Source: Lepidostoma basale
Taxonomy: Eukaryota; Arthropoda; Insecta; Trichoptera; Lepidostomatidae
Length of the DNA stretch: 64,000 bases
Assembly: GCA_022606425.2 (NCBI GenBank)
Contig: JAHDVF020001018.1
Location: 682,001 to 746,000, forward strand
Direction: 5' to 3'
Within the stretch, counting starts at the first letter, position 1, and each line of letters begins with the position of its first letter. Shown here piece by piece: positions 1,135 through 63,960 of this stretch. A program made the translations under genes and the position numbers. The notes below the pieces were generated by a model. That model did not search any database. It was not told where the DNA came from and saw only the letters and a list, made by a program, of their open reading frames with translations.

Positions 1135-1400
1135 AAAATCATAGTCCATTGTTTTGGCCGAAACACTATGACACTTTAACATCTCAAACTGTTTAATTAT
1201 TATAAATAACTTTGTTTTTGTATCATATTGTATTTTATTTTAAGTGACAGCTGTTTGACATCATCAGGTGTTACAATAATATATCAAATGTAAAATTTTT
1301 GTGATTTTTCGAATCTTTATGTGTATTTGTTCCTATGTCAATTTGAATAATTTCAAATTGACAATTTGTAATACAAAAACAAAGTTATTTAATTTAACAG
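1135..1400. mobile_element. P2 palindromic element
   Basis: Starts with the P2 end (ttgttttggccgaaacac) and holds the P2 core on the minus strand (gacagctgtttgacatcatc, then aggtgttacaat). It ends near tttaatttaacag. A short duplication (aaatcat) may flank it. The hairpin arm of the core is partly deleted, so the ribozyme-like fold is not intact here. Confidence 0.65.
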
Positions 1401-1737
1401 TTTAAAACAAATCATCTTAATATACTATAAATAGGCAAAAACGATAGAGTACAAAATTTGTATTTTTACTGCAAAAGAGAGATATTCTCTGCGAAAGTAT
1501 TTCGAAATGAACACAATTCGCATGTCCGAGGACGTTTCTGTTTTTTATAAAAAAATGTTCTGATTATTGTTGTAATGTAGTAATACTTATTTGGCTTTAT
1601 TTTACTTGATCTTTACTTTCGACCGGTCATCTATAAAAAGTCAACTAGATATTCTGGTTTTGCAGAAGATAGCAACGATATACGATATATTTATAATCTC
1701 ATCATATGTTAATTCGATTTCAATCGTTTTCTATAGC

Positions 1738-1975
1738 ATTATTAATATGAATGAAAAAACGATAGTTTTCAAGGAGTTTTATTATAATATTTATGTATGA
1801 CACGTTTCGCCCTTCTAAGGCATTATCAAATGTCATTTGATAATGCCTTAGAAGGGCGAAACATGTCATAAATAAATATTATAACAAAACTCCTTGAAAA
1901 CTATCGTTTTTTCATACATATTAATAATTTATTATGGAGTTTTACATCATTGTTCAAGAAACAATAAATATTCTA
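1738..1975. mobile_element. P1 palindromic element
   Basis: Two inverted arms meet near 1834. Each arm carries gaaaacgatagttttcaagg-like sequence and ccttctaaggcattatc. The plus-strand core at 1834-1867 reads TTGATAATG, hairpin CCTT-AGA-AAGG, CGAAAC, ATGTC. The right end has the P1 terminal sequence atcattgttcaagaaacaat. No coding capacity. Confidence 0.75.
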
Positions 1976-2014
1976 TAGCAGTTACTATACTTCTATCACC
2001 AAGCGAATAATCCT

Positions 2015-2135
2015 CAAATACAAATACTTATTATATATTTATTGTCGCTTGAATAACTTTAATTGATAAATGTCTTAACAAGGCAAAACACGTTATCTCA
2101 AAAAAATAAAAACTTCTAGAAAACAGACGTTTTAA
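2015..2135. mobile_element. P1 half-element
   Basis: Carries a decayed core, TTGATAAATGTCTTAACAAG, then GCAAAACACGTT (2063-2098), followed by the P1 arm aaaacttctagaaaacagac. The opposite arm is absent, so this is a single-arm or truncated copy. Confidence 0.6.
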
Positions 2136-2224
2136 TTATTTATCAACATTTATACTTTCGTATCAAGCACTTAATTTGTGGTGTGGTATTATTAAATATA
2201 ATATTAATACACTTGTAAATTTAT

Positions 2225-2300
2225 ATTAACATCACTTTATTCTCTTCAACAACTAACCGGTTTCGCTCTCGCTGGAGCTTCGTCAGGGTTACAAAAGACA
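2225..2300 (-). mobile_element. P4 element core
   Basis: On the minus strand the order is CTGACGA, A, helix GCTC/GAGC with loop CAGCGA, GAAA, CCGG, TT. The hammerhead-like order is complete. Flanking AAC and GTT can pair as helix I after one mismatch. A poly-A run follows at about 2312. Confidence 0.6.
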
Positions 2301-2339
2301 CTAAATGACAATGAAAAAAAAAAAAAAAAAATTTAACAC

Positions 2340-2540
2340 AAAATGTTCATTTTGGATTGGTGCACATATTGTCTATTTAATTTGTGTTCCATGAATCCAC
2401 CGTTTTTTTAATTTAGCACATAATGTAATAACACATAATGTTTTTTTCGATGTTGCACATGTTGACATGGACGATCCGGACTTTTGTGTTTATTTAATTT
2501 ATGTTACACGTATCCACCGTTTTTTTTAAATTAGCTGTAA
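2340..2540. repeat. Imperfect direct repeat, about 120-bp period
   Basis: Two copies of a block with atccaccgttttttttaa and attagc lie at about 2363-2417 and 2483-2535. They are preceded by similar ctatttaatttgtgtt sequence. No coding sense. It may be part of the P4-associated element to its left. Confidence 0.55.
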
Positions 2541-3642
2541 TTAGGCACTTAACCAGCAAGAACTTAAAAATAATATTGATGAAATTGGAATGTCATTGGA
2601 ACAAATGAAAAATTTATTTTGACACCTGTCAAAATTCTTTATTAAAACGAAAAAACATATTATATGATAGTTTAAATGCTGGTTACAATAAAATCTCTAG
2701 CGATATAAACAAAATCATGTTTATTAACAAAAATGTTTACTTATTTTCGTTATAAAGTGAGTTTTCAATTTAATTATTATAAATCGAGTATATAAAGTTT
2801 TTAAAACGTATACAGCGTAATTCTGTAAATATTAGTAAATACGAAATTGCTTTGATCTCAAAGCCACAGCTTTATTATCCTATTCTATCTAATTGTAAAT
2901 AATATTAAATGCGTTATCAATCATAAAAGTAAATAATTAAACGGATGATAAAGCAAATATATACGAATATGTACTTAAAAAATAACATAAATATTGTGCG
3001 CATACTAAAATGATACATTTTATTGTTTTCATTAAATTAACCAAAAGTGTTCTTTATGTTTTCGAATGAAGTTTGAATTTGGCATGGTATGATTTTTTTC
3101 TGGTTTGTATTTACATGAAAACATTTTGTTTCGTGTTTTATTCGCAGGTTATTATTTACTGTACGTTCAGGGTAAGTACTTTTTTTACTTGTTTTTTTTT
3201 ATGATATGTATGTAAAACATTAGGTTTTATTCGTTCTCATATAAGTTTAGGAATGTTTTATTGTTGTTGTTATATTTATTTAAGTCAGTTTATAAATAAA
3301 GGCTACTACTAGTAGTAATGTTAAGGTTTAAATTGTTCTGTGCTTGTTTGGGTGAACGAAATCACTCAAAATAATTTGATTAAATTATCTAATTTACGTG
3401 TTCCTGTATATAAATCAGTATCTAGCTATTCACTAATATAATATATACATTTTACGTCTTTAAAAATCATTAATTTAATATCTCGAAAGTGCCATTACAT
3501 CTGCTTATGCTTAATAGTGATACTTTAGAAAAGAAAAGGATGTGGGGCTCTGACCAATATTTAAATAATACTCAAAAGTAGCAAATCATTTAAATAAGAA
3601 ATCCTTTATGAAACGAAATGTTCCTATGATAAACTTATAGGA
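2541..3642. other. Intron-like DNA; holds one microexon candidate
   Basis: AT-rich and without recognised repeats. The only notable item is the splice-site pair around 3148-3171, listed separately. Confidence 0.5.
3148..3171 (+). CDS. Candidate 24-nt microexon
   Basis: A pyrimidine-rich tract ends in ttcgcag at 3141-3147. It is followed by 24 nt and then by a strong donor, gtaagt, starting at 3172. The 24 nt are open in all three frames and keep phase; frame 1 would read VIIYCTFR. Splice-site quality is the only evidence. Such pairs arise by chance in AT-rich introns, so this is a weak call. It is on the same strand as the exon at 61164-61263. Confidence 0.2.
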
Positions 3643-3960
3643 TTGCATTGTTCCATTAATGACATTTCACCCCCATCTTTCTGCCTTTATTTTATCTCGA
3701 ACGTTGGTGTAATATCGATTCTACTGACGAAAGAATTTAATAAATATCAAGGGTCGTATATGAGTAGGTACCCCCTATCACCCGATTCTGATTTCGAATC
3801 GAATAACTTGAAATTGACACACATCACTCGTCGTTCTAAATTTGTAAAGAACTGGGATATTTTAAATGAAAAGATAAAACATCTCAAAGGAATACTTATG
3901 CCTCGGAGGAAGAGTATCTCTAAGAGGCATATTCAATATTTCTCGCGTGAAATTGTTTAA
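3643..3960 (+). other. Open frame of 105 codons, unrecognised
   Basis: This frame stays open for 318 bp in AT-rich DNA and ends at taa in 3958-3960. It begins at a TTG; the first ATG is about 40 codons in (around 3760). The product has a hydrophobic N-terminal stretch and a basic C-terminal part (MPRRKSISKRHIQYFSREIV). I recognise no domain, splice site or repeat. It may be a decayed element ORF or chance. Confidence 0.2.
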
Positions 3961-4044
3961 AGCTATCTTCAAAATATTTTATAAGCTGACGAATCCATAG
4001 TCGAATAAAAAAACAAATAAAAACTTCAAAGATATAATTACATT

Positions 4045-4160
4045 TATTTTGCCTTACAATAACTGTGATGCCAACACAGGTTGGCGAAGCAACTGTCGTG
4101 ACAATCTAATAAAAATAAATTATGACACTTATAATAACAGTGTTTCAAATTTAAACAGTT
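4045..4160 (+). mobile_element. P2 element, single core
   Basis: Plus-strand core: TGTGATGCCAACACAGGTTG, then GCGAAGCAACTGTCGTGAC. The hairpin is GCCAAC-ACAG-GTTGGC, followed by GAAGC. The CTGATGA part has decayed to ctgtgat. The tail continues towards gtttcaaatttaaacag. Confidence 0.6.
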
Positions 4161-4913
4161 AATCAGTTCTTTAAGAAATTACGAGTAGTTGATACGAATG
4201 AAAACGTCCGTTTTCTAGAAGTTTTACTATATTTTATGTGAATTTTATGTAATTAATATTCGTACCAATAAAAATCGCTCTTTTCTAGAAGTTTTTTTTA
4301 TATCTGACTGTTTCTTAAACAATCAAGTAGAGTTTATTAATTATTGTTTTCATCAATTTTTAAAAGGTTTGTAAATTTTTTTGCAACATTGGAAAAATAG
4401 CTTTTATTAAAATGTAAATGGTGTTTAAATACGATTGTGAAAAACATGTCTAGAAGAATGTTACGGCAACTTAAAACCTTCACTTATTTTTTTTTATCTC
4501 ACAGAATACGCCAAATTTTAAACATTTAAAAGAAAATGAATGATATAACACACTTGTTATTCGAATGTCGATTTGACCTCACGCTGGGATACACTTTTAA
4601 AAATATCGCTACTTCAATGATGAAAACCACTTGACTTTACTGATCTCGTATTTCTCTGCACAGAGAGAGACTTAAAAACCGTGAATGCCGGAACTAGGCA
4701 CGATGAAGTGGTTTTTAAGGGAGGTTGCTGGAGATGAATCAGGAAGGAATATGTACGAGTATATCTTTATATATACTACGAGATGGTAAAAAAGAATTCA
4801 GTAGACATTTTTATGCATAATTAAAAGAATCCCTGTAATATATGCACTGTAAAATTCGAGATATTTAAATTAAAGACGTTTTTTTTATGTTACAGAGAAT
4901 GTAACAAATCCGA
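4161..4913. other. Mostly unassigned; two P1 arm scraps
   Basis: Short P1 arm pieces lie at about 4192-4240 (atacgaatgaaaacgtccg, ttttctagaag) and 4258-4296. The rest is AT-rich with no recognised gene or repeat. Confidence 0.4.
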
Positions 4914-5179
4914 CTTTGATATAGTATCGAATGGAAATATGATATAAAAAGATAATGCAATGCGAATGAAATTGAAAAATGAAAGGATCATTAAGATGCT
5001 TTGGACACATGGAAAGAATGAATGAAAAAATAATGGTAAAAAGTTTATGTTAACGATGTAAATGGAACTAGAAATAGAGAATGACCGATGAAAACGTGGC
5101 ACGATAAAATAAATCAAATATTGAATGTCGGGCACGAGTCGGAGAAATCGACATACGTGCATGACACGATGTATGAATG
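4914..5179 (+). mobile_element. RTE-A LINE fragment, left part of a split copy
   Basis: A degraded C-terminal reverse-transcriptase ORF region of RTE-A. It contains the equivalents of KGSLRWFGHMERMNE and KTWHDQINQILNV, with frameshifts. It stops at gtatgaatg and resumes at about 5881 (ttgaggaatcgag). The 5180-5880 block is an insertion, flanked by aatg on both sides. Confidence 0.75.
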
Positions 5180-5968: not shown

Positions 5969-6624
5969 ACAATAATATTTACTGACAATCAAAAAATTTA
6001 AGCAAATCGTTTCTTCGATCGGGATTTTTATAATTTCTTTGTTTAAAATACTTTCCACCGATGTCATCACTTGAATATGTTATTTTGTGGGCTTTTTTTG
6101 AAAGATATATTAAGTGCAATTATAATTTTATTCTTGTATCTCAGGACTCATTATTTATGTTGCTTGTAAATCAACTATACGCGATATTAATACGATAAAT
6201 AAAGTTATTTACCATTTTTTCCTGTTTACCCATTGGGGACTACGACGATTGATTAATAGGTTTGTGAGATCCGATTAAAATAAATATAACTTTGATTCAC
6301 GATGATCAAATGCGAGTAATTCAAGGTCCTTATAAATACACGTCGGATTCCTATATATTTTTTTCCTTTAGTTATTGGGAGCACTCAAATTATTTTTGAA
6401 AAATCAGACATTGCCGTCATAACTAATTTATCCAATAAATCATTTCCTGGCTTCTGAGAGCCTGTGCCTGAGTACAGATATAAAACTTCATAAAGTCACC
6501 TGACATGGCACTTTGAGAAGAAGAAGAAAAATAGGGCATTATCAAACGCTTGGAAGGATTTTTTTTTACACTTAATACAAATATTGAAAGCTAAGGCATT
6601 AACACTGTGGAATTCCATAGTAAT
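5969..6624. other. No feature recognised
   Basis: AT-rich sequence with no long frame and no repeat that I can match elsewhere in the window. Confidence 0.45.
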
Positions 6625-6770: not shown

Positions 6771-6842
6771 TAACCTGGGCTAATTGTTATAAGTACTAAT
6801 AATATTTTTTTATCAGTAAGAACTGATAAATAATCTTTCGCT

Positions 6843-7345: not shown

Positions 7346-7374
7346 TATGACACTTTTTGCTGTTAGGGTGGTAA

Positions 7375-19412: not shown

Positions 19413-20680
19413 TTAGGTCCTTACATATGAAATTGGCGTTTTGCCGTACTGGCAACTTTGATCTCAAATATCTTCTCTTTTAAATTTATACAGCTATTAA
19501 CTCAAGTATTTGTGTTTTGAAAATTATAATTCATTTGTTTTTTCCTCAATTGTTTTTTTTCTTTGCGTCACTCAGTTTACAAAATGGAAAACTTAAAATA
19601 TCGAGTTATTTACGAGTACGAGTTCCACCGTGGCACCAGTGCTGCAGAAACGGCTCGAAGGATTAATGATGTGTATGGCGACGGTGCCGCAAAAGAAAAC
19701 ACAGTGCGTTTTTGGTTCCAACGTTTTCGTTCTGGAAATTTCGACCTGCAGAACAAGCCCCGTGGACGGCCGGAGACCAAAGTTGATAATGAAGAATTGA
19801 AGGCTATTGTGGAAGCGGATCCATCGCAAACCACGTCCGAGTTAGCTGCAGGCTGCGGTGTTAGTGATAAAACTGTTTTAATCCACTTGAAGCAAATTGG
19901 GAAGGTGAAAAAGCTTGAAAGGTGGGTACCTCACGAATTGAGTGAAGCAAATCAACAAACGCGCGTTGACTGCTGCGTTGCATTACTCAACCGGCACAAT
20001 AATGAAGGGATTTTGAATCGAATCATTACCTGTGATGAAAAGTGAATCCTGTATGATAATCGGAAGCGCTCATCGCAATGGCTGAACCCTGCCGAACCAG
20101 CCAAACCATGCCCCAAGCGAAAACTGACTCCAAAAAAGTTACTTGTGAGCGTTTGGTGGACTAGTGCTGGTGTCGTTCACTACAGCTTTCTTAAATCTGG
20201 CCAGACGATTACGGCAGATGTCTATTGTCAGCAACTGCAAACCATGATGGAAAATCTAGCTGCTAAACAACCGAGGCTGGTTAATCGCTCTAGGCCACTG
20301 CTGCTTCATGATAACGCTAGACCACACACTGCACAACAGACGGCTACCAAATTAGAAGAGCTTCAATTGGAATGTCTAAGACATCCACCGTACTCTCCGG
20401 ACCTTGCCCCAACAGATTACTATTTTTTTCGAAATTTGGATAACTTCTTGCAAGGGAAAAAATTCAACTCCGATGGGGCAGTCCAAACCGACTTCAAAGA
20501 TTTTATTGATTCCCGTCCGAATGGTTTTTTTAGTAAAGGGATCGATGAACTACCTATGAGATGGCAAAAGTGCATAGATAGCAATGGTACATACTTTGAT
20601 TAAATAAATATATTATATTAAAAAAAATCAACTTTATGTTCCTCCCATACAAAACGCCAATTTCATATGTAAGGACCTAA
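19413..20680 (+). mobile_element. mariner element, full length
   Basis: Perfect 31-bp inverted ends, TTAGGTCCTTACATATGAAA onward at 19413-19443 and the reverse complement at 20650-20680, with TA on each side (19411-19412 and 20681-20682). The 1268-bp length, TA target and D,D34D transposase fit the mariner family of Tc1/mariner. It is inserted in a TTAA element, so it is a late arrival. Perfect ends suggest a young copy. Confidence 0.95.
19584..20603 (+). pseudogene. mariner transposase with one in-frame stop
   Basis: One frame from ATG 19584 (MENLKYRVIYEYEFHRGTSA) to taa 20601-20603, 339 residues long counting one TGA stop at 20043-20045. That TGA replaces the Trp of the usual DEKW motif (CDEK, stop, ILYDN). 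Domain order is normal: N-terminal helix-turn-helix DNA-binding region (about residues 1-110), linker WVPHEL, then the catalytic domain. The DDD34D acid residues are all visible: D of CDEK, D of LLHDNARPH, and D of PDLAPTDYYFF, with 34 residues between the second and third. The transposase cuts and pastes the element by binding the ends. With this stop the product would be cut near residue 153, before the second acid residue, so it should be inactive unless the stop is read through. A longer frame begins at a TTG at 19563, but the mariner start MEN favours 19584. Confidence 0.93.
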
Positions 20681-22078: not shown

Positions 22079-22341
22079 AAATAATCCATTGTTTTGGCCG
22101 AAACAATATGATACTTCAACATTATTACTGTTAAAATTTAAAACACTGTTATAATATCACAATTTCTTTTTAATCACCGAGAGTGTCGCAACAGCTGTTT
22201 CGCCAACCGATATTGGCATCCTCAGGTGTTACATTGAGTTTATTGTAACACCTGATGATGCCAACATCGGTTGGCGAAGCAGCTGTCGCGACACCCAATG
22301 AAAAAAAAATGTGATATTATTATTATTTAAATTTTAACAGT
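22079..22341. mobile_element. P2 palindromic element with 12-bp duplication
   Basis: Flanked by gaaaataacttt on both sides (22067-22078 and 22342-22353). The two arms carry inverted copies of the core: minus at 22188-22230 and plus at 22248-22290. The plus core reads CTGATGA, T, GCCAAC-ATCG-GTTGGC, GAAG, CAGCTG, TC. The minus core has CTGAGGA and GAAA. The outer ends have ttgttttggccgaaac. No coding capacity. Duplication length excludes standard cut-and-paste families. Confidence 0.85.
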
Positions 22342-22419: not shown

Positions 22420-22560
22420 ATATGAATTTTAAATGCGTTTTTTATATTAGTCTTTCTTTGTTTAGTTTTTATTATATATTTACACCTGAAGATAGAGGTA
22501 TCCTCCGAAACATATCGTGTTTTTAAATATTTTGTGGATAATGAACAAAGTTAATAACAA
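22420..22560 (+). mobile_element. P6 element
   Basis: Core at 22482-22519: ACAC, CTGAAGA, T, helix (A)GAGG-TAT-CCTC(C), GAAA, CATA, TC, GTGT. The outer ACAC and GTGT can pair as helix I. Homologous to 50740-50870. Confidence 0.65.
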
Positions 22561-23935: not shown

Positions 23936-24395
23936 GTGCATATCTGTGTATGATAGAGTGTCGAATGAAAACATAAGAAATGAATACAGTACGAATGAAA
24001 GTGTTATGAACAAAATAATCAAAGGATCATTAAGGTATTCGACCAGTCTGTCGATGCCAGCGAGCCTGGCGAAACCGGTCGCTGTCTAAATAAAGAAAAA
24101 AATGGAAGTAGTTAAAAAACATCGTTTTATTTAATTATCATTAAGGTAGTTTGGACACAGAAATAATGAATGAAGAAATAATGGTAAAAAAAGTATATGT
24201 TAACGATGTAAATGGAACAAAAAATAAGAAAGATTAAATGTTTGCCACGGGAGCAGTCCAAGTAATCGACGTGCGTGCGTGACACGATAAATGAATGTTG
24301 AGGATCCGAGAGAAGTATGTCAGGAAAGAACAGTGTGGCGGTCCAATCTTTCTGCTTACCCCTTAAGGAAACGGCGTGATGGTTAATTATTTATG
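23936..24395 (+). mobile_element. RTE-A LINE fragment, split by P5
   Basis: Left part ends MNKIIKGSL (aaaggatcattaag), right part resumes at 24141 with taagg-tagtttggacac and continues to NVEDPREVCQERTVWRSNLS and ggcgtgatggttaatta at about 24373-24390. Several frameshifts. The 24038-24136 insert is P5. Confidence 0.7.
24038..24136 (+). mobile_element. P5 element, 99 bp, complete with 12-bp duplication
   Basis: Duplication atcattaaggta at 24026-24037 and 24137-24148. The element is little more than the motif and a tail: CAGT, CTGTCGA, T, GCCAG-CGAGC-CTGGC, GAAA, CCGG, TC, GCTG, then an A-rich stretch. Outer CAGT and GCTG can pair (4 bp with one wobble), as helix I. CTGTCGA differs from CTGANGA at the fourth base. 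Two related copies lie at 28925-29030 and around 36990-37316. Confidence 0.8.
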
Positions 24396-24719: not shown

Positions 24720-25030
24720 CAGTTTTGTTTTATGTATCACACTTGTATTTTTATTTTTCGCGACAGCTGTTTCGTTAACCTATATTGACATCATCAGGTG
24801 TTTCAATGATAAAAATTATCAGTCAACCTATGTTGACATCATCAGGTGTTACAATAATAATAATAATGATAATTATTGTAACACCTGTAGATGTCAACAT
24901 AGGTAGACGAAACAGCTGTCCCGAATAATAAAAATACAAATTTGATACATAAAACAAAGATTTTGAAGTTTAAAGTTAGTAATGTTGAATTATTATAGTG
25001 TTTCGGCCAAAACAATGAACTATTTAGTTT
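24720..25030. mobile_element. P2 element with three cores
   Basis: Two minus-oriented cores (24762-24812 and 24830-24852, the second partial) and one plus core (24880-24925, cacctgtagatgtcaacata, ggtagacgaaacagctgtcc). The outer end (agtgtttcggccaaaacaat, 24999-25018) is present on the right only. An extra arm suggests a rearranged or dimeric copy. Confidence 0.65.
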
Positions 25031-30875: not shown

Positions 30876-31079
30876 TTATTGTTTCTTGAACAATGCTGTA
30901 AAACTCCATTTTAAATAATTAATACGAATGCAAACGTCAGTTTTCTAGAAGTATTATTATATTTTATGGGAATGACATGTTTCGCCCTTCTAAGGCATCA
31001 TTAAATGTCTGGCAAAACATGTCATTCCCATAAATATAATAAAACTTCTAGAAAACTGACGTTTTCATTCGTATTAATT
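30876..31079. mobile_element. P1 palindromic element with near-perfect duplication
   Basis: Arms ttctagaagtattattat and ataataaaacttctagaaaa, each flanked by gaatg(c/a)aaacgtcag. Centre gacatgtttcgcccttctaa ... ggcaaaacatgtc. Flanks aaaatattttac (30864-30875) and aaaatatattac (31080-31091) match at 11 of 12. The loop is shortened, so the core hairpin is incomplete. Confidence 0.75.
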
Positions 31080-32059: not shown

Positions 32060-32470
32060 TTTTTTACAACACTTTATTTTTTTTTTAATAAATATAATTA
32101 TACTCTGTATTACAACATTTTTTATTTCTACTGAACTCAGACATGTTTCGGTTACAAGTAACCTTTATTAATGTATACAATTATCACATATAACGTATAT
32201 AATGTTAAAATTGTATACATTGATAAAGGTTACTTGTAACCGAAACATGTCTGAGTTCAGTAGTAATAAGAAGTGTTGTAATACAAAGTATAATTATATT
32301 TATTCAAATATGAATCCACAACACAAAGTAAATGCGAACATAGAAAAACTATATTTAACTTTTCAGACATGTTTCGGTTATGATATAACCTTTTAAAATT
32401 TTATCGTATCTGAAACATGTCTGTGAAAAGTGTAATAAAGTGTTGTAAAAATATATGTCATACTAACAAT
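32060..32470. mobile_element. P3 palindromic element
   Basis: Two inverted copies of the core: minus at 32140-32175 and plus at 32217-32252. Plus core: ACA, TTGATAA, A, GGTTAC-TT-GTAACC, GAAA, CATG, TC, TGAG. A second, more decayed pair lies at 32363-32425. Ends carry cactttatt and aataaagtgttgtaaaa. Non-coding. Confidence 0.75.
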
Positions 32471-34620: not shown

Positions 34621-34904
34621 CGAAATTGAAATAATAACTTTTTTACCAAGTTTATTATATCATCCAATAGGTTACGCGTTACACAATAGGAAAATCAGTA
34701 ACCGTACGTCGATGTCATAATATAATATGTAATTATGGGAGCAGTCATTTTTATTGAGTTCCCACTGAATGAAGCCATCCAACTACATACTCACACATGC
34801 GGTTAATCCGTTTATGTGTCGATACTTGCATACATAGTATGTTATATGTTATACATATAGCATTGGAACCCTGCATATACGTACAATTGTATACTTCTAT
34901 TGAC

Positions 34905-35378
34905 TTTACTCAAATATACAAGTGGAGTTCTGGTCCCATCCCTAATTTATGGAAGCGAAACATGGAACTGGCAGAAGAAGGATGAAAGTAGAATAAATGC
35001 GGTAGAGATGAGGTCCCTAAGACGTATGTGTGGTAGAACGATATACGACAGAATCTCAAATGCTGATATAAGAAAGGAATGTAGAGCGGAAGAAGGTATT
35101 ATGAACAAAATTATGAAAAGTTCGCTGCGAATGGTTAAAAAAGTATACGTTAATGATGTAAATGGAGTACGGAGTCGAGGGAGACCGAGAAAAACATGCT
35201 ATGACCAAATTAATCAAATTTTAAAGGTTCGTCATGTTAGAAGTCGGAGGAATCGACGTGCGAGTATGACTCGTTGTATGAATGTGGAGGAATCTAGAGA
35301 GGTTTATCAGGCTAGAGTAGTGTGGCGGTCCATTCTCTCTGCCTACCCCTACGGGGAAACGGCGTGATGGTTTGTTTG
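34905..35378 (+). mobile_element. RTE-A LINE, 5'-truncated, open frame
   Basis: Frame 34900-35367 encodes VPSLIYGSETWNWQKKDESR, INAVEMRSLRRMCGRTIYDR and then, after an in-frame deletion at SSLRMVKKVYV (the RWFGHMERMDEE block is missing), RGRPRKTCYDQINQILK and ILSAYPYGETA, stop. Tail gatggtttgtttgttt differs from the GTTA tail of other copies. Confidence 0.8.
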
Positions 35379-36207: not shown

Positions 36208-36448
36208 AAATAGTCCATTGTTTTGGCCGAAACATTATGATACTTTAACTTGATAAACTGTTAAATTTAAAAAACTTTGTTTTATGTATCACAATTGTAT
36301 TTTTATTTGACGCGACAGCTGTTTCGTCAACCTATGTTGACATTGTAACACCTGATGATCTCAACATAGGTTGACGAAACAGCTGTCGCTTAAAATAAAA
36401 AGACAATTGTGATACATAAAACGAAGTTTTTTAATTTAACATTTTACT
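36208..36448. mobile_element. P2 palindromic element with 9-bp duplication
   Basis: Flanks ttgttaact at 36199-36207 and 36449-36457. Plus core at 36348-36389: CTGATGA, T, (C)TCAAC-ATAG-GTTGA(C), GAAA, CAGCTG, TC. The minus arm (gcgacagctgtttcgtcaac) faces it. Terminal sequence ccattgttttggccgaaaca on the left. Confidence 0.8.
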
Positions 36449-36989: not shown

Positions 36990-37316
36990 ATAATAATTAA
37001 ATAAAACGATGATCTTTATAACTACTTCCACATTTGTCTTTATATCGAAATAAAGAACATAAAGAACATCGTTTAAATTAATACGAATGAAAACGTCAGT
37101 TTTCTAGAAGTTTTATTATATTTTATGGGAATGACATGTTTCGCCCTTCTAAGACATCTGATAATGCCTTAGAAGGGCGAAACATGTCATTCCCATAAAA
37201 TATAATAAAACTTCTAGAAAACTGACGTTTTCATTCGTATTAATTATTTAATATGGAGTTTTACATCATCGTTCAAGAAACAATAAATAACATCGTTTTA
37301 TTTAATTATTATATAC
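36990..37316 (-). mobile_element. P5 element interrupted by P1
   Basis: The stretch ataactacttccacatttg and tctttatatcg resembles the P5 tail on the minus strand; aacatcgttttatttaatta resumes at 37289 after P1. The P5 core itself is not recognisable here. Confidence 0.5.
37075..37288. mobile_element. P1 element, nearly perfect palindrome, 10-bp duplication
   Basis: Duplication aacatcgttt at 37065-37074 and 37289-37298. Left arm from attaatacgaatgaaaacgt (37078) and right arm to acgttttcattcgtattaat (37243) are almost exact reverse complements over about 75 bp. Plus core at 37153-37188: GACAT, CTGATAA, T, helix GCCTT-AGA-AGGGC (one G-U), GAAA, CATG, TC. Outer GACAT and ATGTC are complementary. 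The least decayed P1 copy here. Confidence 0.85.
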
Positions 37317-37326: not shown

Positions 37327-38455
37327 ACGTTAATAGAGAAAAGTTGTGGGAAATATTGTCTGAATATGGAATAAGTACAAAACTGATCACGGCAATTAAG
37401 TCGCTATACACAGAAAGCACTGCTAGTGTCAGAGTAAATGGAGATCTTACAGCCTGGTTTGATATCAATAAAGGTGTCAAACAGGGTTGCGTAATGTCCC
37501 CGTGGTTATTTAATCTGTATATGGACAAATGTATGAAAGAGCTGAAAGGGTTGGATGTAGGTGCCAAATGAGCGGAGTGTCAGTAAGCTGTCTCTTGTAT
37601 GCGGATGACGCTGTCCTTCTTGCAGACAACGAGCATGAACTACAAGTCCTGGTGAATTGTATGTATGAGGTATGCATGCGAAATGATCTGATGATGAATG
37701 TTAATAAGTCCAAGGTAATGATTTTTGAAAAGGAAGAAACCATGACAGTCTGCAACATTAGCGTGAATGGTGAAAATTTGGAGCAAGTAGTTGAGTTCGT
37801 GTATTTAGGTAGTATGTTTACAAGAGATGGGCGAGTGGAGAGGGATATTGAAAGAAGGGTTGGGGCAGGCAACAAAGTGAATGGTGCCCTTAAAGTTGTC
37901 ATCGCAAACAAAAACCTATCCAAAAAAGCTAGAATGGCAGTGCACAATGGTGTTCTTCTACCGACCCTTATGTATGGAAGCGAAGCATGGAACTGGCAAA
38001 AGAAGGATGAAAGTAGAATAAATGCAGTTGAAATGAGATCTCTTAGAAGAATGTGTGGATACTCTGTGTATGATAGAGTGCCAAATGAAAATATAAGAAG
38101 TGAATGCGGTGCGAATGATGGTGTCATGAACAAAATAATGAAAGGATCATTAAGATGGTTTGGACATATTGAAAGAATGAATGAAGAAAGAATGGTAAAA
38201 AAATTATATGTTAATGATGTAAATGGAACCAGAAATAGAGTAAGACCGAGGAAAACGTGGCACGATCAAATAAATCAAATATTGAATGTCGGCCATGTGA
38301 GGAGTCAGAGAAATCGACGCGCGTGCATGACACGATGTATGAATGTTGAGGAAGCGAGAGAAATATGTCAGGAAAGAAAAGTGTGGCAGTCCATTCTTTC
38401 TGCCTACCCCTTCGGGGAGACGGCGTGATGGTTAGTTAGTTAGTTAGTTAGTTAT
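37327..38455 (+). mobile_element. RTE-A LINE, longest copy, with RT domain
   Basis: Frame 1 (37344-37571): LWEILSEYGISTKLITAIKS, then NKGVKQGCVMSPWLFNLYMD. Frame 2 (37529-38428): SVSCLLYADDAVLLADNEHE, VEFVYLGSMFTRD, LMYGSEAWNWQKKDESRINA, MKGSLRWFGHIERMN, then ILSAYPFGETA and stop. GVKQGC and YADD are RT palm motifs of non-LTR retrotransposons; the fingers and the endonuclease domain are missing by 5' truncation. One base appears lost at about 37566 (GAK/MSGVS), joining the frames. The product copies element RNA into a nicked target. Tail (GTTA)n at 38429-38452. RTE clade is inferred from the short tail and post-RT motifs. Confidence 0.85.
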
Positions 38456-44869: not shown

Positions 44870-44948
44870 ACTTTTATACAACACTTACATTTATTAAAAA
44901 ACAAACAATATTAAACATGTTTCGGACTAACCAGCCCTTCATCAAGAT
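44870..44948 (-). mobile_element. P-type core, separate family
   Basis: Minus core at 44914-44946: TTGATGA, A, GGGCT-GGTT-AGTCC (one G-U), GAAA, CATG, TT. The hammerhead-like order is kept, with T for the first C. Flank acacttacatttattaaaaa resembles P3 ends. Confidence 0.5.
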
Positions 44949-44949
44949 A

Positions 44950-45118
44950 TTCTTCTTCTTCTTCTTCCTCAGCCTATTCCTGTCCAATCCTGGACAAAGG
45001 CCTCCTCCATTTGCTTCCATGTCATTCTGTCCTGTGCAGACTGCATCCAGGTTATTCCGACGTGTCTGTTTAGATCATCCTTCTCTTCGCCGTCCACGGT
45101 CTCTAAGTCAGCAGTCAA
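44950..45118 (-). mobile_element. RTE-C LINE 3' end
   Basis: Minus strand: DRGRRREG-like text, DAVCTGQNDMEANGGGLCPG and ending DWTGIG, stop, then a (GAA)n tail (ttcttcttcttcttcc, 44952-44967). Fits an RTE-type LINE 3' end; frames are broken. Confidence 0.55.
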
Positions 45119-45832: not shown

Positions 45833-46397
45833 ACATTAGACTTTACTGCATATCAATTCTTAGGATTGAAACATAAAAAAGGTTCAAATTTTATGTTAGA
45901 AAATTATTTTAAAAAACGTTATAAATATATGGAAGAAGTTTTACGTCCTTTGTTTTAATATTATATATCTACATACGTTTAAGATTAGGTATTATGTAAT
46001 AATATGAATAATTTTATGAGCTTTATGATTTTTATATTGGGTAATAGATTTTATTCTCCGTGTATTGGCGACGGTGGGGAATCGATATAACAGATGGAAT
46101 TCGCGATGAAAGTGGGCCAATAGCGAAGGTTAGGGTCAATCGGAACTCCGTAGAGGGCGGGGGCGGGACGGGGTGGGCGGTAGCAGAATGTGGGGTACGT
46201 GACTCGTCCTTCGCCAGATCGATTTGATAAATCATTCCTATATTATTATCACGAATTATGCCACATCGAAGCGTTACTCTTCCTCATTCGAAAACAAAAA
46301 TCCAGTGTATATGTATATATTTTTTGATACACTTAAAATTGGAATAACGTAATGACGATTATTTTTATGAATTAATACATTTTTTAGATTTTTTTTT
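45833..46397. other. Unassigned; GC-rich patch at 46130-46215
   Basis: ggagggcgggggcgggacgg-like sequence (46150-46172) stands out from AT-rich flanks. No ORF with splice sites. Not matched to any repeat here. Confidence 0.35.
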
Positions 46398-47215
46398 TGT
46401 ATACAAATACTTGTAGACAAATACTGGATTTTCACAAGAAATTGGAGCAAGTTACTGAATTTACGTATCTGGGAAGCATGTTTACAAGGGACGGAAAAAT
46501 GGAGAAAGACATCGAAAGGAGGGATGGTGCTGGGAATAAAATAAATGGCGCACTCAAAGTCATTACTGCAAATAGAAATATATCGACAGAAGCAAAGATG
46601 GCAGTACACAATGGAGTTCTAGTGCCAACCCTCATGTATGGAAGTGAAGCTTGGAGCTGGCAAAAGAAGGATGAAAGCAAGATAAACGCCGTAGAAATGA
46701 GATCACTAAAAAGAATGTGCGGGAAAACGTTGTATGATAGAATACCAAACGATGAAATAAGAAAGAAATGTAAGGCAGATGACTGCATCATGAATAAAAT
46801 TAAAAAAGGATCCCTGAGATGGTTCGGACATATGGAACGAATGGATGAGAGTAGAATGGTTAAAAAATTATACACAAGCAGTGTGAGTGGGAAAAGAAGC
46901 CGAGGACGACCGAGGAAAACATGGCATGACCAAATTAATCAATTACTAAAAGGCGGCCACATTCGAAGTCGGAACAATCGATGTGCGTGCATGGTACGAT
47001 GTATGGATGTAGAGGAAGCTCGAGAGGTATGCCAGGACAGGCCAGTGTGGCGATCCATCCTCTCTGCCTACCCCTCCGGGGAAATGGCGTGATGGTTAGT
47101 TAGTTAGTTAGTTTACCCATTGTGGGTTAATCATATTTTAAGGATTAATTTAATTTAACTACCATATTCTGTTTCCAAATAATTTACATCTTCGTCTCGT
47201 TTGAGATACAATTAA
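46398..47215. mobile_element. P7 element split by RTE-A
   Basis: P7 right-end sequence gtatacaaatacttgtagac and aaatactggattttcac (46398-46434) is followed by RTE-A. P7 resumes at 47114 with tttacccattgtgggttaat and an inverted left end (catcttcgtctcgtttgaga, tacaattaatt). Removing the LINE restores ggatttt-acccattg. Confidence 0.65.
46436..47113 (+). mobile_element. RTE-A LINE, 5'-truncated, uninterrupted frame
   Basis: Frame 46397-47092 has no stop over the LINE part: LEQVTEFTYLGSMFTRDGKM, INGALKVITANRNISTEAKM, LMYGSEAWSWQKKDESKINA, KGSLRWFGHMERMDESRMVK, RGRPRKTWHDQINQLLKGGH, VWRSILSAYPSGEMA, stop. Post-RT region only. Tail (GTTA)n at 47093-47112. Its sequence differs from the 37327 copy at many residues, so it is a different subfamily. 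Confidence 0.85.
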
Positions 47216-50739: not shown

Positions 50740-50870
50740 TTTTTATTAGTCTTTCTTTATTTTGTTTTTTTTATTATATATTTACATACGAAGACGGAGG
50801 TCTCCTCTGAAACATGTCGTGATTTTTAATATTTTAGTGGATAATAAACAAAGATATTTTTCAGTTTCCA
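50740..50870 (+). mobile_element. P6 element
   Basis: Core at 50784-50818: ACAT, ACGAAGA, C, GGAGG-TCT-CCTCT, GAAA, CATG, TC, GTG. ACGAAGA replaces CTGAAGA. Flanks ttagtctttctttattttgt and agtggataataaacaaag match 22450 and 22535. Confidence 0.65.
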
Positions 50871-52040: not shown

Positions 52041-52426
52041 AATCAATTGTTTTGGCGGAAACACTTTGATATTTTAACATTATTCACTGTTAAATTAAAA
52101 ACACTGTTTTAATATCAACAAATTAGTTTATTTTTATATATTTATTGTAACACCTGACGATGGTAACATCGGTTACCGAAACAGCCGTCGCGACGATTTT
52201 ATAAAAAAATAAACTAAATATTTGATTAATTGTATCTCAATAGAGACGAAGATGTAAATTATTTGGAAACCAAATATGGTGGTCAATTTTTCAATCCTAA
52301 AATTTAAACTAAGCATAAATTAACTACCGAATGATTAATTTAAGTTTTTATAAGGAAATTTTCTAATTAAAAAAAAAGCAACATCAATTTTTTTATATTA
52401 AAACAGCGTTTTTAATTTAACAGTGA
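52041..52426. mobile_element. P2 element with 12-bp duplication and P7 inside
   Basis: Duplication cgaatattctgt at 52029-52040 and 52427-52438. Plus core at 52150-52195: CTGACGA, T, GGTAAC-ATCG-GTTACC, GAAA, CAGCCG, TC. The left terminus tcaattgttttggcggaaac is altered slightly. A P7 piece interrupts at 52222-52340. Right terminus tttttaatttaacagtg. Confidence 0.8.
52222..52340 (+). mobile_element. P7 fragment
   Basis: gattaattgtatctcaatag, agacgaagatgtaaattatt, aaccaaatatggtggtc. Only the left P7 end is present. Confidence 0.55.
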
Positions 52427-58628: not shown

Positions 58629-59928
<1,300 letters not shown>

Positions 59929-60137: not shown

Positions 60138-60193
60138 GTAACCGAAAATGACCAGTCCCTGGTACCCAAGTACTAATTTAAACTAAAACATAT

Positions 60194-60466
60194 GACATAT
60201 CGTACTCATACCTTCGGTAAGACAAGGGCACAATTGTACGCTTTGTAATTTTTCATTTTAAACATTTAAAGTTTTTTGAAGAATAATATCATGTTATTCT
60301 GGCTATATTGATAATACACTATCGCCCTCTGGCTAAATGAGACTGAACTTAATGGGCGACTTTGTTCCTCCAGATAAAGCGATGTTTTTAAAATACATTG
60401 GCATACTTAACTCATTTTGAGAATTTTTAACAATTATGCCCTTGTCTTACCGAAGGTGCGATATGT
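60194..60466. mobile_element. MITE with about 37-bp inverted ends
   Basis: Left acatatcgtactcatacctt and cggtaagacaagggcacaat; right attatgcccttgtcttaccg and aaggtgcgatatgt. The arms are near reverse complements with a few mismatches. Interior has gccctctggctaaatgagac. No ORF. Target duplication not clear. Confidence 0.7.
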
Positions 60467-61163
60467 ATTACACTTAGGTTCTTGTATTTCCATACTGTTG
60501 TTTACAGAGCAAAATAAACTTAAAAGTGAAAAAACGTTTTTTTATTTATAAAAAATACGTCATTATGGAATCCCATAGTGTTAAGGCCCTAAATTTATTT
60601 AAAAAATATATAAACAGCTTTTATATAAACTTAAATAGTTAACACTATAGAATTAGATAATGACGATTTTTTAATGAATTCAAACACTGCTTTTTAGTAG
60701 AAAAAAATAAACTCAAAATTATTAAATAATATTAATCCTAATCGGACGTTAGCTTTTGTATCTTTGTATATATTATTCTATCTATAATTAAATTTAAAAG
60801 GGACTGCGTATGATAATTTCTCCATCGCTAATATTCAACTGGCAAAGTAATAACGTGCAGATTCCACAGAAAAGATTCAACATGATTCATCATGTCACCT
60901 CACATGCGCCATACAACCCCAGTGACAAAGTTCTGTTGTCACGTCAGAGGTGACTTACGTTCGTGAATGGTTAATTTATAAAACAAATCTATATTAAATG
61001 TGTTTAATAAAATCTCCTTTCAAATTAACGATTTAATTCCACAATTTTAACGCCTTTACCTTCAATAATAAATCATTCAATGCGTTCTAAATAAATAAAT
61101 TGCGGCCATTATGAGATTTCGTTTTATTATTTTTATATCATCTAATTATATGTTTTTCTGTAG
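60467..61163. other. Intron-like, upstream of exon
   Basis: ggaatcccatagtgttaagg (60568) matches P6-associated ends. A small inverted pair gtcacctc/gaggtgac lies at 60893-60954. The pyrimidine tract just before 61164 serves the exon. Confidence 0.35.
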
Positions 61164-61263
61164 GAGGATGAGAAGAAATCGAAGAGGAAGGCTGGGAGCA
61201 CCTCCCAGCCACCGCCCGAGGAGCTGGCGAGAGTGCCGGACCCGTCTGACGCCAGTTTAAATG
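61164..61263 (+). CDS. Internal exon of an unrecognised host gene
   Basis: A 100-bp block far richer in GC than its flanks, bounded by a good acceptor (tttttctgtag, 61153-61163) and donor (gtgaga from 61264). Only one frame is open throughout: it starts EDEKKSKRKAGSTSQPPPEE and ends LARVPDPSDASLN plus one base (phase 1 at the 3' side). The other two frames contain stops. The segment is acidic, then basic (KKSKRK, nuclear-localisation-like), then proline- and serine-rich, as in disordered regions of nuclear or regulatory proteins. I do not recognise the family and see no domain. No second exon with a matching phase was found nearby, as expected for a long-intron insect gene. Alternatives are an exon of a recent gene duplicate or a chance block; composition and splice signals make this the best host-coding call here. 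Confidence 0.7.
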
Positions 61264-61530
61264 GTGAGAAAACCCCATTCCATCTCCCTCTTTATTCACA
61301 AAAACCAAAATAAACAATTCATTCATAACTTTGCGAAAATCAATAGAGGTGGGCGCTCTTAGAGTGTTAAGTGCTCTTGCTTATTTTATAACGCAGAAAA
61401 TTCTAATTTCTAAACACGCTTTCAAAATACGGTTTGAAAATTGAAATGCTAATTTTCTGATGTTTATTTTACCATGTCAGTAAGAAATACCGAACGTATG
61501 TTTTTATAAATGTAATAATAATCGTGTTAT
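61264..61530. other. Intron after the exon
   Basis: Starts with the donor gtgagaaaacccc and turns AT-rich. Nothing else seen. Confidence 0.5.
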
Positions 61531-61720
61531 TTTCTTTGTTTCTTGAACAATAATGTAAAACTCATTTATTGTTTCTGGAACAATAATGTAAAACTCATTT
61601 ATTGTTTCTTGAACAATGATGCAAAACTCCATATTAAATCATTAATACGAATGAAAACTTTTCTAGACAGCAGCGAGTTCGAAACATGTCATTTATATAA
61701 AACATAATAAATCTTATTAT
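61531..61720. mobile_element. P1 element, left part, with terminal triplication
   Basis: The P1 end (ttgtttcttgaacaataatg, taaaactca) occurs three times in tandem with a period of about 34 bp (61531-61630), then attaatacgaatgaaaactt and a short core remnant (cgaaacatgtcatttat). Continues beyond an RTE-A scrap at 61915. Confidence 0.65.
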
Positions 61721-61845
61721 TTTATTTTTATATCTTATTAATATTAATATTTTTTAAGCGCCTATTGGTGGCGATGAGGTTCGCAACCCATCACACCGCG
61801 TCTCCCGCGGAGCGAAAAGAGAAGGGTGGAGTGTCGCATCAGTAA

Positions 61846-61912
61846 AGTGTGACAGTCCATTCTTTCTGCCTACCCTTTCGGGGAGACGGCGTGATGGTTA
61901 GTTAGTTAGTTT
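61846..61912 (+). mobile_element. RTE-A LINE 3' scrap
   Basis: agtgtgacagtccattcttt, ctgcctaccctttcggggag, acggcgtgatggttagttag. Only the last 67 bp of the family. Upstream 61780-61845 has catcacaccgcgtctcccgc in opposite sense, suggesting a second inverted scrap. Confidence 0.7.
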
Positions 61913-61914
61913 TA

Positions 61915-62140
61915 ATAAATCTTCTAGAAAACGATCGTTTTCTTTCGTATTAATTAATGTAAATTCTATATTAAATTTGTCTCGTCCGTTTGCCAGAAAT
62001 TTTATTATAATTTATGGGAATGACATATTTCACGTTGTCATTTTACAATGCCTTAACAAGGATTAACATGTCATTCAAATAATATTTTGTATAATCAAAC
62101 TTATAGAAAGCATACGTTTTCATTAGAATTAATAATAATG
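61915..62140. mobile_element. P1 element, right part, decayed
   Basis: tcttctagaaaacgatcgtt, then a second arm pair ttgccagaaattttattata and ataatcaaacttatagaaag around acaatgccttaacaaggatt. Probably two overlapping P1 remnants. Confidence 0.5.
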
Positions 62141-62414
62141 TTACTCTGATGACATGGAAAACTCCTAGTAATAAGTATATTGTATTTAAAAAATATTAAT
62201 ATGACTCACCTTAATATTTATTTTCATAAGCCCTACGAGATTCTATAAATAGGAACAATTGTGAATCAAGACGTGTGTTAAAATTTTTATGAATCTATTT
62301 ATCTCGAACAACTTTTGTATAATCGGGATAAATACTTTTCTCGGGAATGAAGATAGACAACCCACACAATATGTCGAAATAAATAAACCTATGCTCTTTT
62401 GCCCGTGTCAACAT

Positions 62415-62523
62415 AGCAGACGTAATCTCTGGTACTCTAAAATCCACAATATTAATAAATACATGTATGGCCATTAAGAGTAAGATGAGAATCTATAAAG
62501 CATGCGTAAAACCAATTATAACA
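62415..62523 (+). mobile_element. RTE-B LINE, piece 1 of 3
   Basis: gcagacgtaatctctggtac, taagatgagaatctataaag, catgcgtaaaaccaattata: the ISGTL..., KMRIYKACVKPIIT segment. Continues at 62787 after P4, and at 63578 after P7. Confidence 0.7.
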
Positions 62524-62786
62524 CTTTGGTACGAAGCCAATACTTTGTGGTTTGACATATTTAATAATTGATTTAAACATTTTTTTAATACATTGTATTA
62601 AAAACCACTTTATTATGATTAAGTAGCGCCAACCGGTTTCACTCTGTAGCGATATTTCTCAGGGCTATACACAAAAAGTTTTTTATATCCCCGAGGAAGC
62701 TCGCTACAGAGTGAAACCGGTTGCCGCTACTTACTCATAATAATGAGGTTATATACAAAGTTTTAAAAAAACATTAAATTAAATTT
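62524..62786. mobile_element. P4 palindromic element with 12-bp duplication
   Basis: Duplication ccaattataaca at 62512-62523 and 62787-62798. Minus core at 62625-62665: CTGAGAA, AT-type linker, hairpin, GTGAAA, CCGG, TT. Plus core at 62689-62722: C(C)GAGGA, A, GCTC-GCTACA-GAGT, GAAA, CCGG, TT. The core sequence is shared with 2225-2300. Non-coding. Confidence 0.8.
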
Positions 62787-62929
62787 CCAATTATAACATA
62801 TGGTGTTGAAGCAAGGTCAAACACAACAAGACCAAAAAAATTTGAAGACTTCCGAGATGAAGATATTGAAGATGATAGCAGGCATGACGCTAAAAGAACG
62901 CCAGAGGAACACCAGAATAAGAGAGATAT
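62787..62929 (+). mobile_element. RTE-B LINE, piece 2 of 3
   Basis: Encodes in pieces ITYGVEARSNTTRPKKFEDF and EDDSRHDAKRTPEEHQNKRD. Broken by P7 at aataagagagatat. Confidence 0.7.
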
Positions 62930-63577
62930 AACAACATTTTGAATGTATACAAATTCTTGTAGACAAATACTGGATTTCACCCATTGCGGATAAATTATTT
63001 TTATTTTACAAGGATTAATTGTATCTCAATAGAGACGAAGATGCAAGTTGTTTTCTGGGAACAGAAGGTGGTGGCCGAGGCGTTTACAGGACTTATGACC
63101 TGTCATTGGTTGGGTTGAGCGATCGCTTCACGTTTAACAACATTCCCCATTCCGCCGTTATGACCACCACGTCTGACAAACTTTTTGGAACTTGTATATA
63201 TGGTAGGTTTCTACAAATATTTTCACAATATTATGTTCACTCTACACTAGCGTCATCTATATTAAGATTAGAAAGCATTAAGCAGAAAACCTTTATTAAT
63301 GTACTGTGAAAGTCTATGCAAATCATACAGTACTAGATTTCGCCTGGAGATGTCTCTCCAATTTTTTGCCTGCATGTACCAGTTATATTTATATAACAAC
63401 ATTTTGAATGTATACAAATTCTTGTAGACAAATACTGGATTTCACCCATTGCGGATAAATTATTTTTATTTTACAAGGATTAATTGTATCTCAATAGAGA
63501 CGAAGATGCAAGTTGTTTTCTGGGAACAGAAACAACTTGCATCTTCGTCTCTATTGAGATACAATTAATCCTTGTAA
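62930..63577 (+). mobile_element. P7 tandem insertion with 14-bp duplication
   Basis: Duplication aataagagagatat at 62916-62929 and 63578-63591. Inside, the block starting aacaacattttgaatgtata is present at 62930 and again at 63395: a head-to-tail repeat with a 465-bp period. The second unit is truncated and ends in an inverted copy of its left end (caacttgcatcttcgtctct). Repeated junction gcggataaattatttttatt links unit end to unit start. Confidence 0.85.
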
Positions 63578-63730
63578 AATAAGAGAGATATGTGAGGTTT
63601 AGACGAGGCCTTAGAGGCTGAAGACCTCCTAAAAGAAGAAAAGACAGCTGGGAATCCAGCTTACAGGAGGAGCAACACTTTGGAGAACAGACCACATAGG
63701 TCATAGCAAGGACAAATAAGAAGAAGAATT
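63578..63730 (+). mobile_element. RTE-B LINE, piece 3 of 3
   Basis: gagatatgtgaggtttagac, ggcctta, gaagacctcctaaaagaaga, aaagacagctgggaatccag, gcaacactttggagaacaga, and an AAGAAG tail. The C-terminal EICEV and RPPKR segments with a gap. Confidence 0.7.
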
Positions 63731-63789
63731 TGATTAGATAAATAATGTATGTGATAAATATGTATGTAAATCTGTATGTATCTTCTATA

Positions 63790-63960
63790 TTCGCCTTCAT
63801 TTTGTGTTATAGAGTCATTTTTGAATAACCATGAAAATATATTGTGTTTTCACAACACTTTATTACACATTTCAGGCACGTTTCGGAAGGCTCTCCTCTT
63901 TCCCCGGTGTGAAATTTTAAAGATTATAATTTGTCTGACACATGTCTATGAAGAGTGATA
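63790..63960 (-). mobile_element. P3-like element, cut near window end
   Basis: cacaacactttattacacat, ttcaggcacgtttcggaagg, ctctcctctttccccgg. Minus core: GGGGAA, A, hairpin region, CCTTCC, GAAA, CGTG, CC. The order is kept but CTGANGA is lost. A second arm (tctgacacatgtctatgaag, 63932-63951) follows. Confidence 0.5.

Follow-up and report, generated by a model that had tools for sequence, protein, structure and literature searches.

Hammerhead-like motifs with an extra A or U in probable Penelope-like insertions of the caddisfly Lepidostoma basale

Which elements left behind the short repeats with a hammerhead ribozyme-like core that are scattered over a 64,000-nucleotide (nt) stretch of the Lepidostoma basale genome, and was the RNA from which they were copied cut at that core? 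The stretch, hereafter the window, spans positions 682,001 to 746,000 (forward strand) of contig JAHDVF020001018.1, labelled C95, in the 769 Mb assembly GCA_022606425.2. Its repeat families P1 to P6 were named in an initial annotation, which read them as unrelated palindromic families of non-autonomous retroelements with degenerate or variant hammerheads. The repeats are very probably 5′-truncated insertions of several families of Penelope-like elements (PLEs) that carry a type I hammerhead-like motif near their 3′ end, made from uncut RNA by two-ended copying. The reading in the initial annotation is upheld in part, by a covariance model (CM) and, for P5 and P6, by gene linkage: the cores are type I hammerhead-like variants whose helix III is no more than a small palindrome, PLEs bear them, and in each a single base precedes helix II.

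Read by structure, a copy consists of a 7-nt core, one unpaired base, a helix II running from G to C, GAAA, a palindrome, U, and H17. The palindrome (A-CATG-U, A-CCGG-U or A-CAGCUG-U) is all there is of helix III, which can therefore form only between two motifs. Every copy quoted in the initial annotation is found in its place, and most keep the order described there (core, extra base, G-C or G-U hairpin, GAAA, palindrome, TC or TT), with single deviations; the P6 copy at 22482 has CATA in the palindrome position, and the P2 copy at 36344 has C where G10.1 is expected. The copy quoted as 44914-44946 is present too, on the minus strand, as in P4. Three families depart from CTGANGA: P1 mostly has TTGATAA (CTGATAA in the quoted copy), P3 TTGATAA and P5 CTGTCGA.

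A set of 112 copies with at most one core mismatch, taken from loci of this genome, the window and locus L033 (below), comprises 79 distinct strings; because loci overlap or the motif itself served to retrieve them, the counts are not independent. A similarity cut of our own sorted the copies into 21 families, nine of them single copies and several possibly close relatives. Helix II closes with G-C in 19 of the 21 representatives and with G-U in two. Because pairing in helix II and the palindrome, together with GAAA and A-U (A15.1-U16.1), served to select the copies, their 100% pairing is no test, though the pair types vary. H17 and helix I were not selected. H17 is C in 14, T in five and A in two representatives (98, 12 and 2 of the 112 copies) and G in none of either set; GAAA, A15.1-U16.1 and H17 are all as in the type I small PLE hammerhead. 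Helix I agrees with that hammerhead as well: across the 21 representatives, L033 included, 67.9% of its cells are paired versus 40.6% after shuffling, a covariation score of 0.608 (shuffled, 0.188) was reached by none of 500 shuffles, two-sided changes affect 27 cells (12.6 after shuffling), and sliding the register by 1–3 columns lowers pairing to 23–44%. In the standard type I form, helix II directly follows A9; here one base intervenes in 112 of 112 copies, which makes the motif a variant. A conserved hairpin downstream of the motif was considered and dropped (mean 5.4 versus 4.9 pairs, with 6 of 200 replicates as high). By eye, an AATAAA-like word, perhaps a poly(A) signal, follows the predicted cut site by ~10–35 nt in P1, P2, P4, P5 and P7.

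Genes identify the carrier of two families. A search for GIY-YIG, in which 150 of 541 candidates were scored, gave 62 matches, and 30 loci, some overlapping, were cut out. Under a relaxed motif rule (two core mismatches, a stem of 3), a P5 motif lies 414–471 nt behind the GIY-YIG gene in 17 of these 30 loci, a P6 motif 363–387 nt behind it in three, and a P2-like motif at +828 in one. In many P5 loci a second, weaker rule match sits ~86 nt upstream of the first and was taken as chance. A 758-aa P5 frame in locus L169 matches RVT_1 (1.4e-13) and GIY-YIG (6.6e-5; 23.6 bits, cut-off 22.6), and thus joins reverse transcriptase (RT) and GIY-YIG in one open reading frame (ORF), as expected of a PLE; the P6 link is to GIY-YIG only. 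Homologues of the P5 frame, among the 120 best of 1,343, come from Phthorimaea, Diabrotica and Schistocerca. The P5 and P6 repeats are the 3′ ends of PLEs with genes of their own, and P1 to P4 presumably belong to PLEs as well. The families are probably related to one another, P5 and P6 both being such 3′ ends, and "non-autonomous" is too narrow a term because P5 has RT and GIY-YIG and P6 has GIY-YIG.

The tail-bearing copies point to where the ORF starts. Their last bases encode MNFHQEISVKSFD in P5 (L169, L172) and MEFHSVNVLAFN or something close to it in P6 (L106, L128, L130). These peptides begin 60–73 nt downstream of the predicted cut site and start MNFHQ or MEFHS, much as two of the listed homologues do (MEFHQV in P0005, MDFHQV in P0030). 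The extra T as part of a start codon, as seems the case in Anolis, was rejected: in P5 that ATG frame stops after 11 codons, and in P6, where an early stop closes the frame in only some of the copies, the tail peptides place the start further downstream.

Whether the copied RNA had been cut can be read from where the copies end. The upstream anchor for P5 was the stretch 71–101 nt before the predicted cut site, from where copies that stop at the site can be picked up as well. Of 40 upstream-anchored copies, 39 pass the site, and they define two classes of 3′ end, about +57 to +75 (23 copies) and +107 or more (16 copies); one copy ends at −8 and none within 5 nt of the site. Anchored downstream, 47 of 51 P5 copies cross the site, four start 7–27 nt downstream and none starts within 5 nt, a count that is blind to copies ending at the cut site and whose reference itself ends at +108. 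The tail end near +108 is based on the adjacent duplications and on where L169 ceases to align with seven other loci (6307-6309). P6 copies cross in 31 of 33 upstream-anchored and 30 of 35 downstream-anchored cases, with two ends before the site, one start at +3 and no end within 5 nt; retrieval by the motif, as for many P6 loci, biases the count towards crossing, and the P5 loci were mostly retrieved by the gene. Since copies run past the predicted cut site, these ends suggest that the template RNAs were still uncut at the 3′ motif when they were copied. The same view emerges from an Anolis PLE, whose hammerhead mutants left insertion in vitro unchanged (PMC11167929). P5 5′ ends seemed to cluster shortly before the motif, a reading that was dropped because P6 shows no such cluster.

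Four lists of 100 matches each, the first of each search, were scanned for pairs within 500 nt, and among the matches listed 36 neighbours lie head to head, two tail to tail and five in direct orientation (22/0/0, 7/1/3 and 7/1/2 by set), so that 36 of 38 inverted pairs are head to head (binomial P 5e-9). Seven P5 head-to-head pairs, chosen partly because both arms matched GIY-YIG, were inspected for target duplications, and five (L172, L173, L174, L175, L178) have one of 11–12 bp; the single P5 copy of the window is bounded by a 12-bp duplication, ATCATTAAGGTA. A single target duplication enclosing two opposed copies marks a single insertion event. The palindromic layout, first described as a family trait, is an insertion form: two copies head to head. 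Head-to-head copies with an optional tail on one arm are known from PLEs, and both are found here. In Adineta vaga, Penelope elements form head-to-head inverted pseudo-long terminal repeats (pLTRs) with 8–10 bp target duplications and an optional 31-bp tail on one arm (PMC3846280, a paper in whose main text the word "ribozyme" does not appear), whereas the duplications here measure 11–12 bp and the tail about 43 nt.

These observations can be assembled into a route of insertion. An intact element would carry the motif about 60–73 nt upstream of its putative ORF start. The element's protein would cut both target strands and copy one RNA from each end, presumably priming at both, with copying beginning roughly 57–113 nt past the predicted cut site of the motif; the outcome would be a head-to-head pair of copies flanked by one target duplication. 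The motif RNA itself may cleave as a dimer. Cleavage and extension of both target strands are described for the Anolis PLE protein (PMC11167929), and self-priming on an antisense template has been proposed for the A. vaga elements (PMC3846280). Of these, we infer that two-strand cutting and extension is the simpler route to head-to-head copies.

Within the window, the copies were located with a CM built from 21 sequences, one representative per family. It gives 29 matches at E ≤ 1, 18 of them below 0.01, the E values coming from a short calibration without a shuffled-sequence control and the training set including two window copies and other members of the same families. The matches run from 1238 to 62730, so that the span of 1135-63960 first assigned to the feature is wider than the evidence. 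The P5 core sits inside a 5′-truncated PLE end at 24038-24136, near-identical sequence being found behind RT/GIY-YIG genes. The principal matches (CM E values) and the P5 target duplication are as follows.

1238-1275, minus: P2 fragment without most of helix II; E 0.066 only
1791-1837, minus: P1 core, U3/A8, overlapping 1829-1875 in the same palindrome; E 4.8e-4
1829-1875, plus: P1 core, U3/A8 (TTGATAA), plus match of that palindrome; E 5.5e-6
2247-2294, minus: P4 core, CTGACGA-A-GCTC..GAGC-GAAA-CCGG-TT; E 4.3e-7
22182-22233, minus: P2 core, left arm of a head-to-head pair, CM training member; E 7e-7
22244-22295, plus: P2 core, right arm paired with 22182-22233; E 2.3e-4
22478-22524, plus: P6 core, CTGAAGA-T-stem-GAAA-CATA-TC, helix I ACAC/GTGT; 38.1 bits, E 7.6e-8
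24026-24037, plus: 12-bp target site duplication ATCATTAAGGTA, left of the P5 copy
24040-24088, plus: P5 core, CTGTCGA-T-GCCAG..CTGGC-GAAA-CCGG-TC, U in place of A6; E 3.5e-6
24137-24148, plus: 12-bp target site duplication ATCATTAAGGTA, right of the P5 copy
24754-24805, minus: P2 core, left arm of a pair; E 7.7e-6
24877-24928, plus: P2 core, right arm paired with 24754-24805; E 0.002
30974-31001, minus: P1 core, partial; E 0.0029
32132-32179, minus: P3 core, left arm; E 0.0017
32212-32259, plus: P3 core, U3/A8 (TTGATAA-A), right arm; E 1.7e-5
36344-36395, plus: P2 core; E 1.3e-4
37133-37159, minus: P1 core, partial, overlapping 37150-37196 in the same palindrome; E 0.029
37150-37196, plus: P1 core, CTGATAA-T, plus match of that palindrome; E 1.4e-6
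44906-44954, minus: copy first quoted as 44914-44946, TTGATGA-A-stem-GAAA-CATG-TT; E 4.5e-5
50780-50826, plus: P6 copy, core decayed; E 3.1e-6
52146-52197, plus: P2 core; E 1.2e-5
62623-62670, minus: CCGG-type core, left arm, mirror of 62683-62730; E 0.28 only
62683-62730, plus: CCGG-type core, right arm, CM training member; E 3.3e-6

How far the motif exceeds chance depends on the rule applied. Under a loose rule (core with at most one mismatch, stem of at least 4, GAAA), the window holds 15 matches in total, which equals the maximum among 30 Markov controls and is not significant; the one-base-insert class alone does exceed chance, with nine matches versus a Markov mean of 2.0. When a perfect palindrome is required, 360 kb of DNA from this genome, a non-random sample mostly fetched by motif or gene matches and with some loci overlapping, yields 50 matches with an insert of one base, two with an insert of 2, one with an insert of 4 and none without an insert, and five Markov replicates yield none at all. 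Genome-wide, exact motif matches number in the thousands, versus 0–1 per strand for reversed-pattern controls. Outside this genome, exact matches occur in 2 viral and 101 prokaryote-genome stretches; the stem is 1 bp in 66 of these 103 and 4–7 bp in L006, L044, L058, L084, L094 and L100. A near-perfect copy lies at 6574-6623, minus strand, of L033 (helix I CCCC/GGGG, extra T, helix II GGCG/CGCC, CATG), a contig with eukaryote-like sequence filed as a Zoogloeaceae metagenome-assembled genome, isolate Cf509, from a termite gut to judge by the name. This motif is probably real and belongs to another animal, as host DNA in a bacterial bin.

The base between A9 and helix II is close to a rule. Genome-wide, the exact pattern CTGANGA-X-G-N(8-14)-CGAAAC(A/C)(T/G)GTC, where X is the extra base, is matched 3,978 times with X = T and 7,635 times with X = A or C; C accounts for 87 of the latter, hence A for about 7,548. 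G at the X place, whether as an inserted G or with no insert, accounts for 110 matches, and in many of the 100 of these that were listed an inserted G fits (by eye, uncounted). A or T thus occupies the position in about 98% of exact copies (11,526 versus 87 with C and 110 with G or none). Among the 112 copies read by structure, for which an insert of 1 was preferred over 0 when both gave equal stems, the base is T in 87, A in 20 and G in five (56, 18 and 5 of the distinct strings); in the CTGAAGAAGG family it is A. In these elements the standard form thus includes an additional A or U between A9 and G10.1. The initial annotation was right that every family has the extra base; it is less odd than it was called, since the plus-strand hammerhead of chrysanthemum chlorotic mottle viroid (CChMVd) is a precedent. 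There, an extra A between A9 and G10.1 goes with moderately slower cleavage, its change to U raises the rate 3–4 fold, and C or G is strongly harmful (as given in PMC3705267). Base usage in this genome is in line with that kinetic rule. Common to both is the one unpaired base; CChMVd is a viroid ribozyme, whereas helix III here is a bare palindrome. In the Anolis Poseidon element PAc, the hammerhead is active in vitro and lies near the ORF start, and the ORF opens at stem II, with G8 ahead of the start codon (PMC11167929). We infer from that placement that PAc also has one extra U, though its start codon is inside the motif and the ORF here seems to start 60–73 nt downstream of the cut site. 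In the literature covered, which did not extend to the original small-hammerhead papers, PLE hammerheads were nowhere described as having the extra base, and no claim is made that it is unpublished.

Natural variation in the core falls into three large classes. With an extra A or T, C3-G8 is present in 11,526 genome-wide exact copies, the full CUGANGA box, and U3-A8 in 13,904, while U3 alone and A8 alone number 750 and 700; these copies descend from few ancestors and are not independent events. In fetched DNA read by structure (n = 108), positions 3 and 8 are CG in 76, UA in 13, CA in five, UG in two and others in 12. The active hammerhead fold pairs C3 with G8, and natural U3-A8 covariation has been reported, with swaps active in vitro (PMC3088659). 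Because C3U together with G8A keeps the core base pair, P1 and P3 are not simply broken, and the label "degenerate" does not suit them; it may fit P5, in which U replaces A6. This A6U type has 8,465 genome-wide exact matches. Of 34 P5 copies found by their 3′ flank, 31 read CTGTCGA, three are further decayed and none has CTGA; 30 retain an intact GAAACCGGTC and 32 an intact CCGG. A few P5-like motifs with A6 intact, CTGACGA (CTGACGATGCCAGC...), occur at C11:879696 and L131. The P5 family seems young because its copies are 97–99.8% alike across most loci. Low activity was measured for a hammerhead with a natural A6C change (PMC3088659), and by that analogy the P5 A6U motif is probably weak or inactive.

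Several results weigh against the PLE reading or against its ribozyme. Rfam hammerhead models, proposed earlier as a check, match nothing in the window, at gathering score or E ≤ 10, and 14 loci that hold clear copies of the motif likewise give no match at E ≤ 10. Helix I is paired in only 68% of cells and has 2 bp in some families, and the number of its pairs with any two-sided change (4 of 4) does not exceed shuffles (412 of 500). In nine of the 30 GIY-YIG loci the relaxed rule finds no motif behind the gene; two of these (L139, L141) are bacterial uvrC by translation and four (L148, L149, L154, L155) hold P6-like repeat sequence. For P1, P2, P3 and P4 no link to a PLE gene was obtained, and no complete pLTR-ORF-pLTR copy was found among the fetched loci, only 5′-truncated or inverted ones. 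Among the P5 pairs, L171 has no target duplication and L169, which sits in a TA repeat, is unreadable. The peptide comparison is short, six of 14 residues being common to the P6 tail only in P0030 among 120 homologues. Lastly, A6U in P5 is expected to impair catalysis.

The strongest rival accepts the carrier and reassigns the motif: it may be kept as an RNA dimerisation or protein-binding structure, its palindrome pairing two template RNAs for copying at both ends of the target break and its cleavage a by-product or lost. P5 speaks most clearly for it, a seemingly young family with 8,465 exact A6U matches in which CTGA survives in 0 of 34 copies beside largely intact GAAACCGGTC and CCGG, and whose copies pass the cut site in 39 of 40 upstream-anchored cases, none ending there, and start within 5 nt of it in 0 of 51 downstream-anchored ones. 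The unchanged in vitro insertion of the Anolis hammerhead mutants (PMC11167929) and the head-to-head insertions fit as well. However, the other large classes keep or compensate the core together with its C3-G8 pair, which pure dimerisation would not need, and a few P5-like motifs retain A6 (CTGACGATGCCAGC..., C11:879696 and L131). On balance we regard this alternative as unlikely. The P5 family suggests that amplification continues without the standard catalytic core, the parts that pair being preserved, and a more speculative and somewhat less likely extension is that the hammerhead fold has turned from cutter into coupler, the palindrome holding two templates so that both target ends are copied and a head-to-head insertion within one target duplication results. 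The role of PLE hammerheads has itself been termed "still a mystery" (PMC7761336).

Alternatively, the shared core could reflect nothing but common descent of PLE 3′ ends, preserved in fossil copies with no present function. Individual copies do decay freely, changes at C3 or G8 alone are frequent (750 and 700), and several of the 21 families, which follow from our own similarity cut, may be close relatives. Yet helix I differs among families and stays paired, helix II and the palindrome differ too (their pairing being selected), A or T fills the extra position in about 98% of exact copies, and C3 and G8 mostly change jointly; we hold this explanation to be quite improbable. Least likely are animal retrozymes, in which the hammerheads of small non-autonomous tandem repeats release circular RNA: a palindromic helix III could act as a dimer, retrozymes and PLE hammerheads coexist (PMC7229834), and three direct U3-A8 copies at 269-bp spacing form a retrozyme-like array at C1:1464007-1464575, but few of the close pairs are direct (5 of 43 neighbours within 500 nt, among the matches listed), P5 and P6 copies cross the cut site, and P5 copies carry target duplications. 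P5 and P6 thus lack the tandem 170–400 bp units bounded by cleavage sites, and the array is the one exception among the listed U3-A8 matches.

The PLE reading places these motifs next to the small PLE hammerheads, minimal type I ribozymes with a reduced or absent helix III that reside in pLTRs, occur in thousands of copies in animals and have been proposed to act as dimers (so described in PMC6155905 and PMC7761336). The type I core, tiny helix III, PLE carrier and thousands of copies are common to both; unlike the small PLE hammerheads as described in those citing papers, the motifs here have the extra A or U, a dominant U3-A8 class and the young-seeming A6U family. Small PLE hammerheads are reportedly the subject of Cervera and De la Pena 2014 and of Lunse, Weinberg and Breaker 2017 ("cleave RNA as dimers"). 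Dimeric action is already known; what is added is the extra A or U as a rule, U3-A8 counted as the largest class, and a seemingly young A6U family. One genome with three large natural classes (C3-G8, U3-A8, A6U) and a near-constant extra A or U offers a ready-made set on whether cleavage matters for PLE movement.

A few other features deserve mention. Contigs C102 (holding L139) and C729 (holding L141) have long uvrC-like frames beside other bacterial frames, and the assembly seems to contain bacterial contigs, whether symbiont or contaminant. In the window, 19530-20603 encodes a mariner-type transposase (HTH_48, Transposase_1) in two frames with a stop between them. Repeated coding fragments of another retroelement lie at 37514-38428, 46388-47092 and 34861-35367; an RVT_1 match slightly under the cut-off was obtained in the first and none in the other two. 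A long AT dinucleotide repeat at 59300-59518 dominates inverted-repeat searches of the window.

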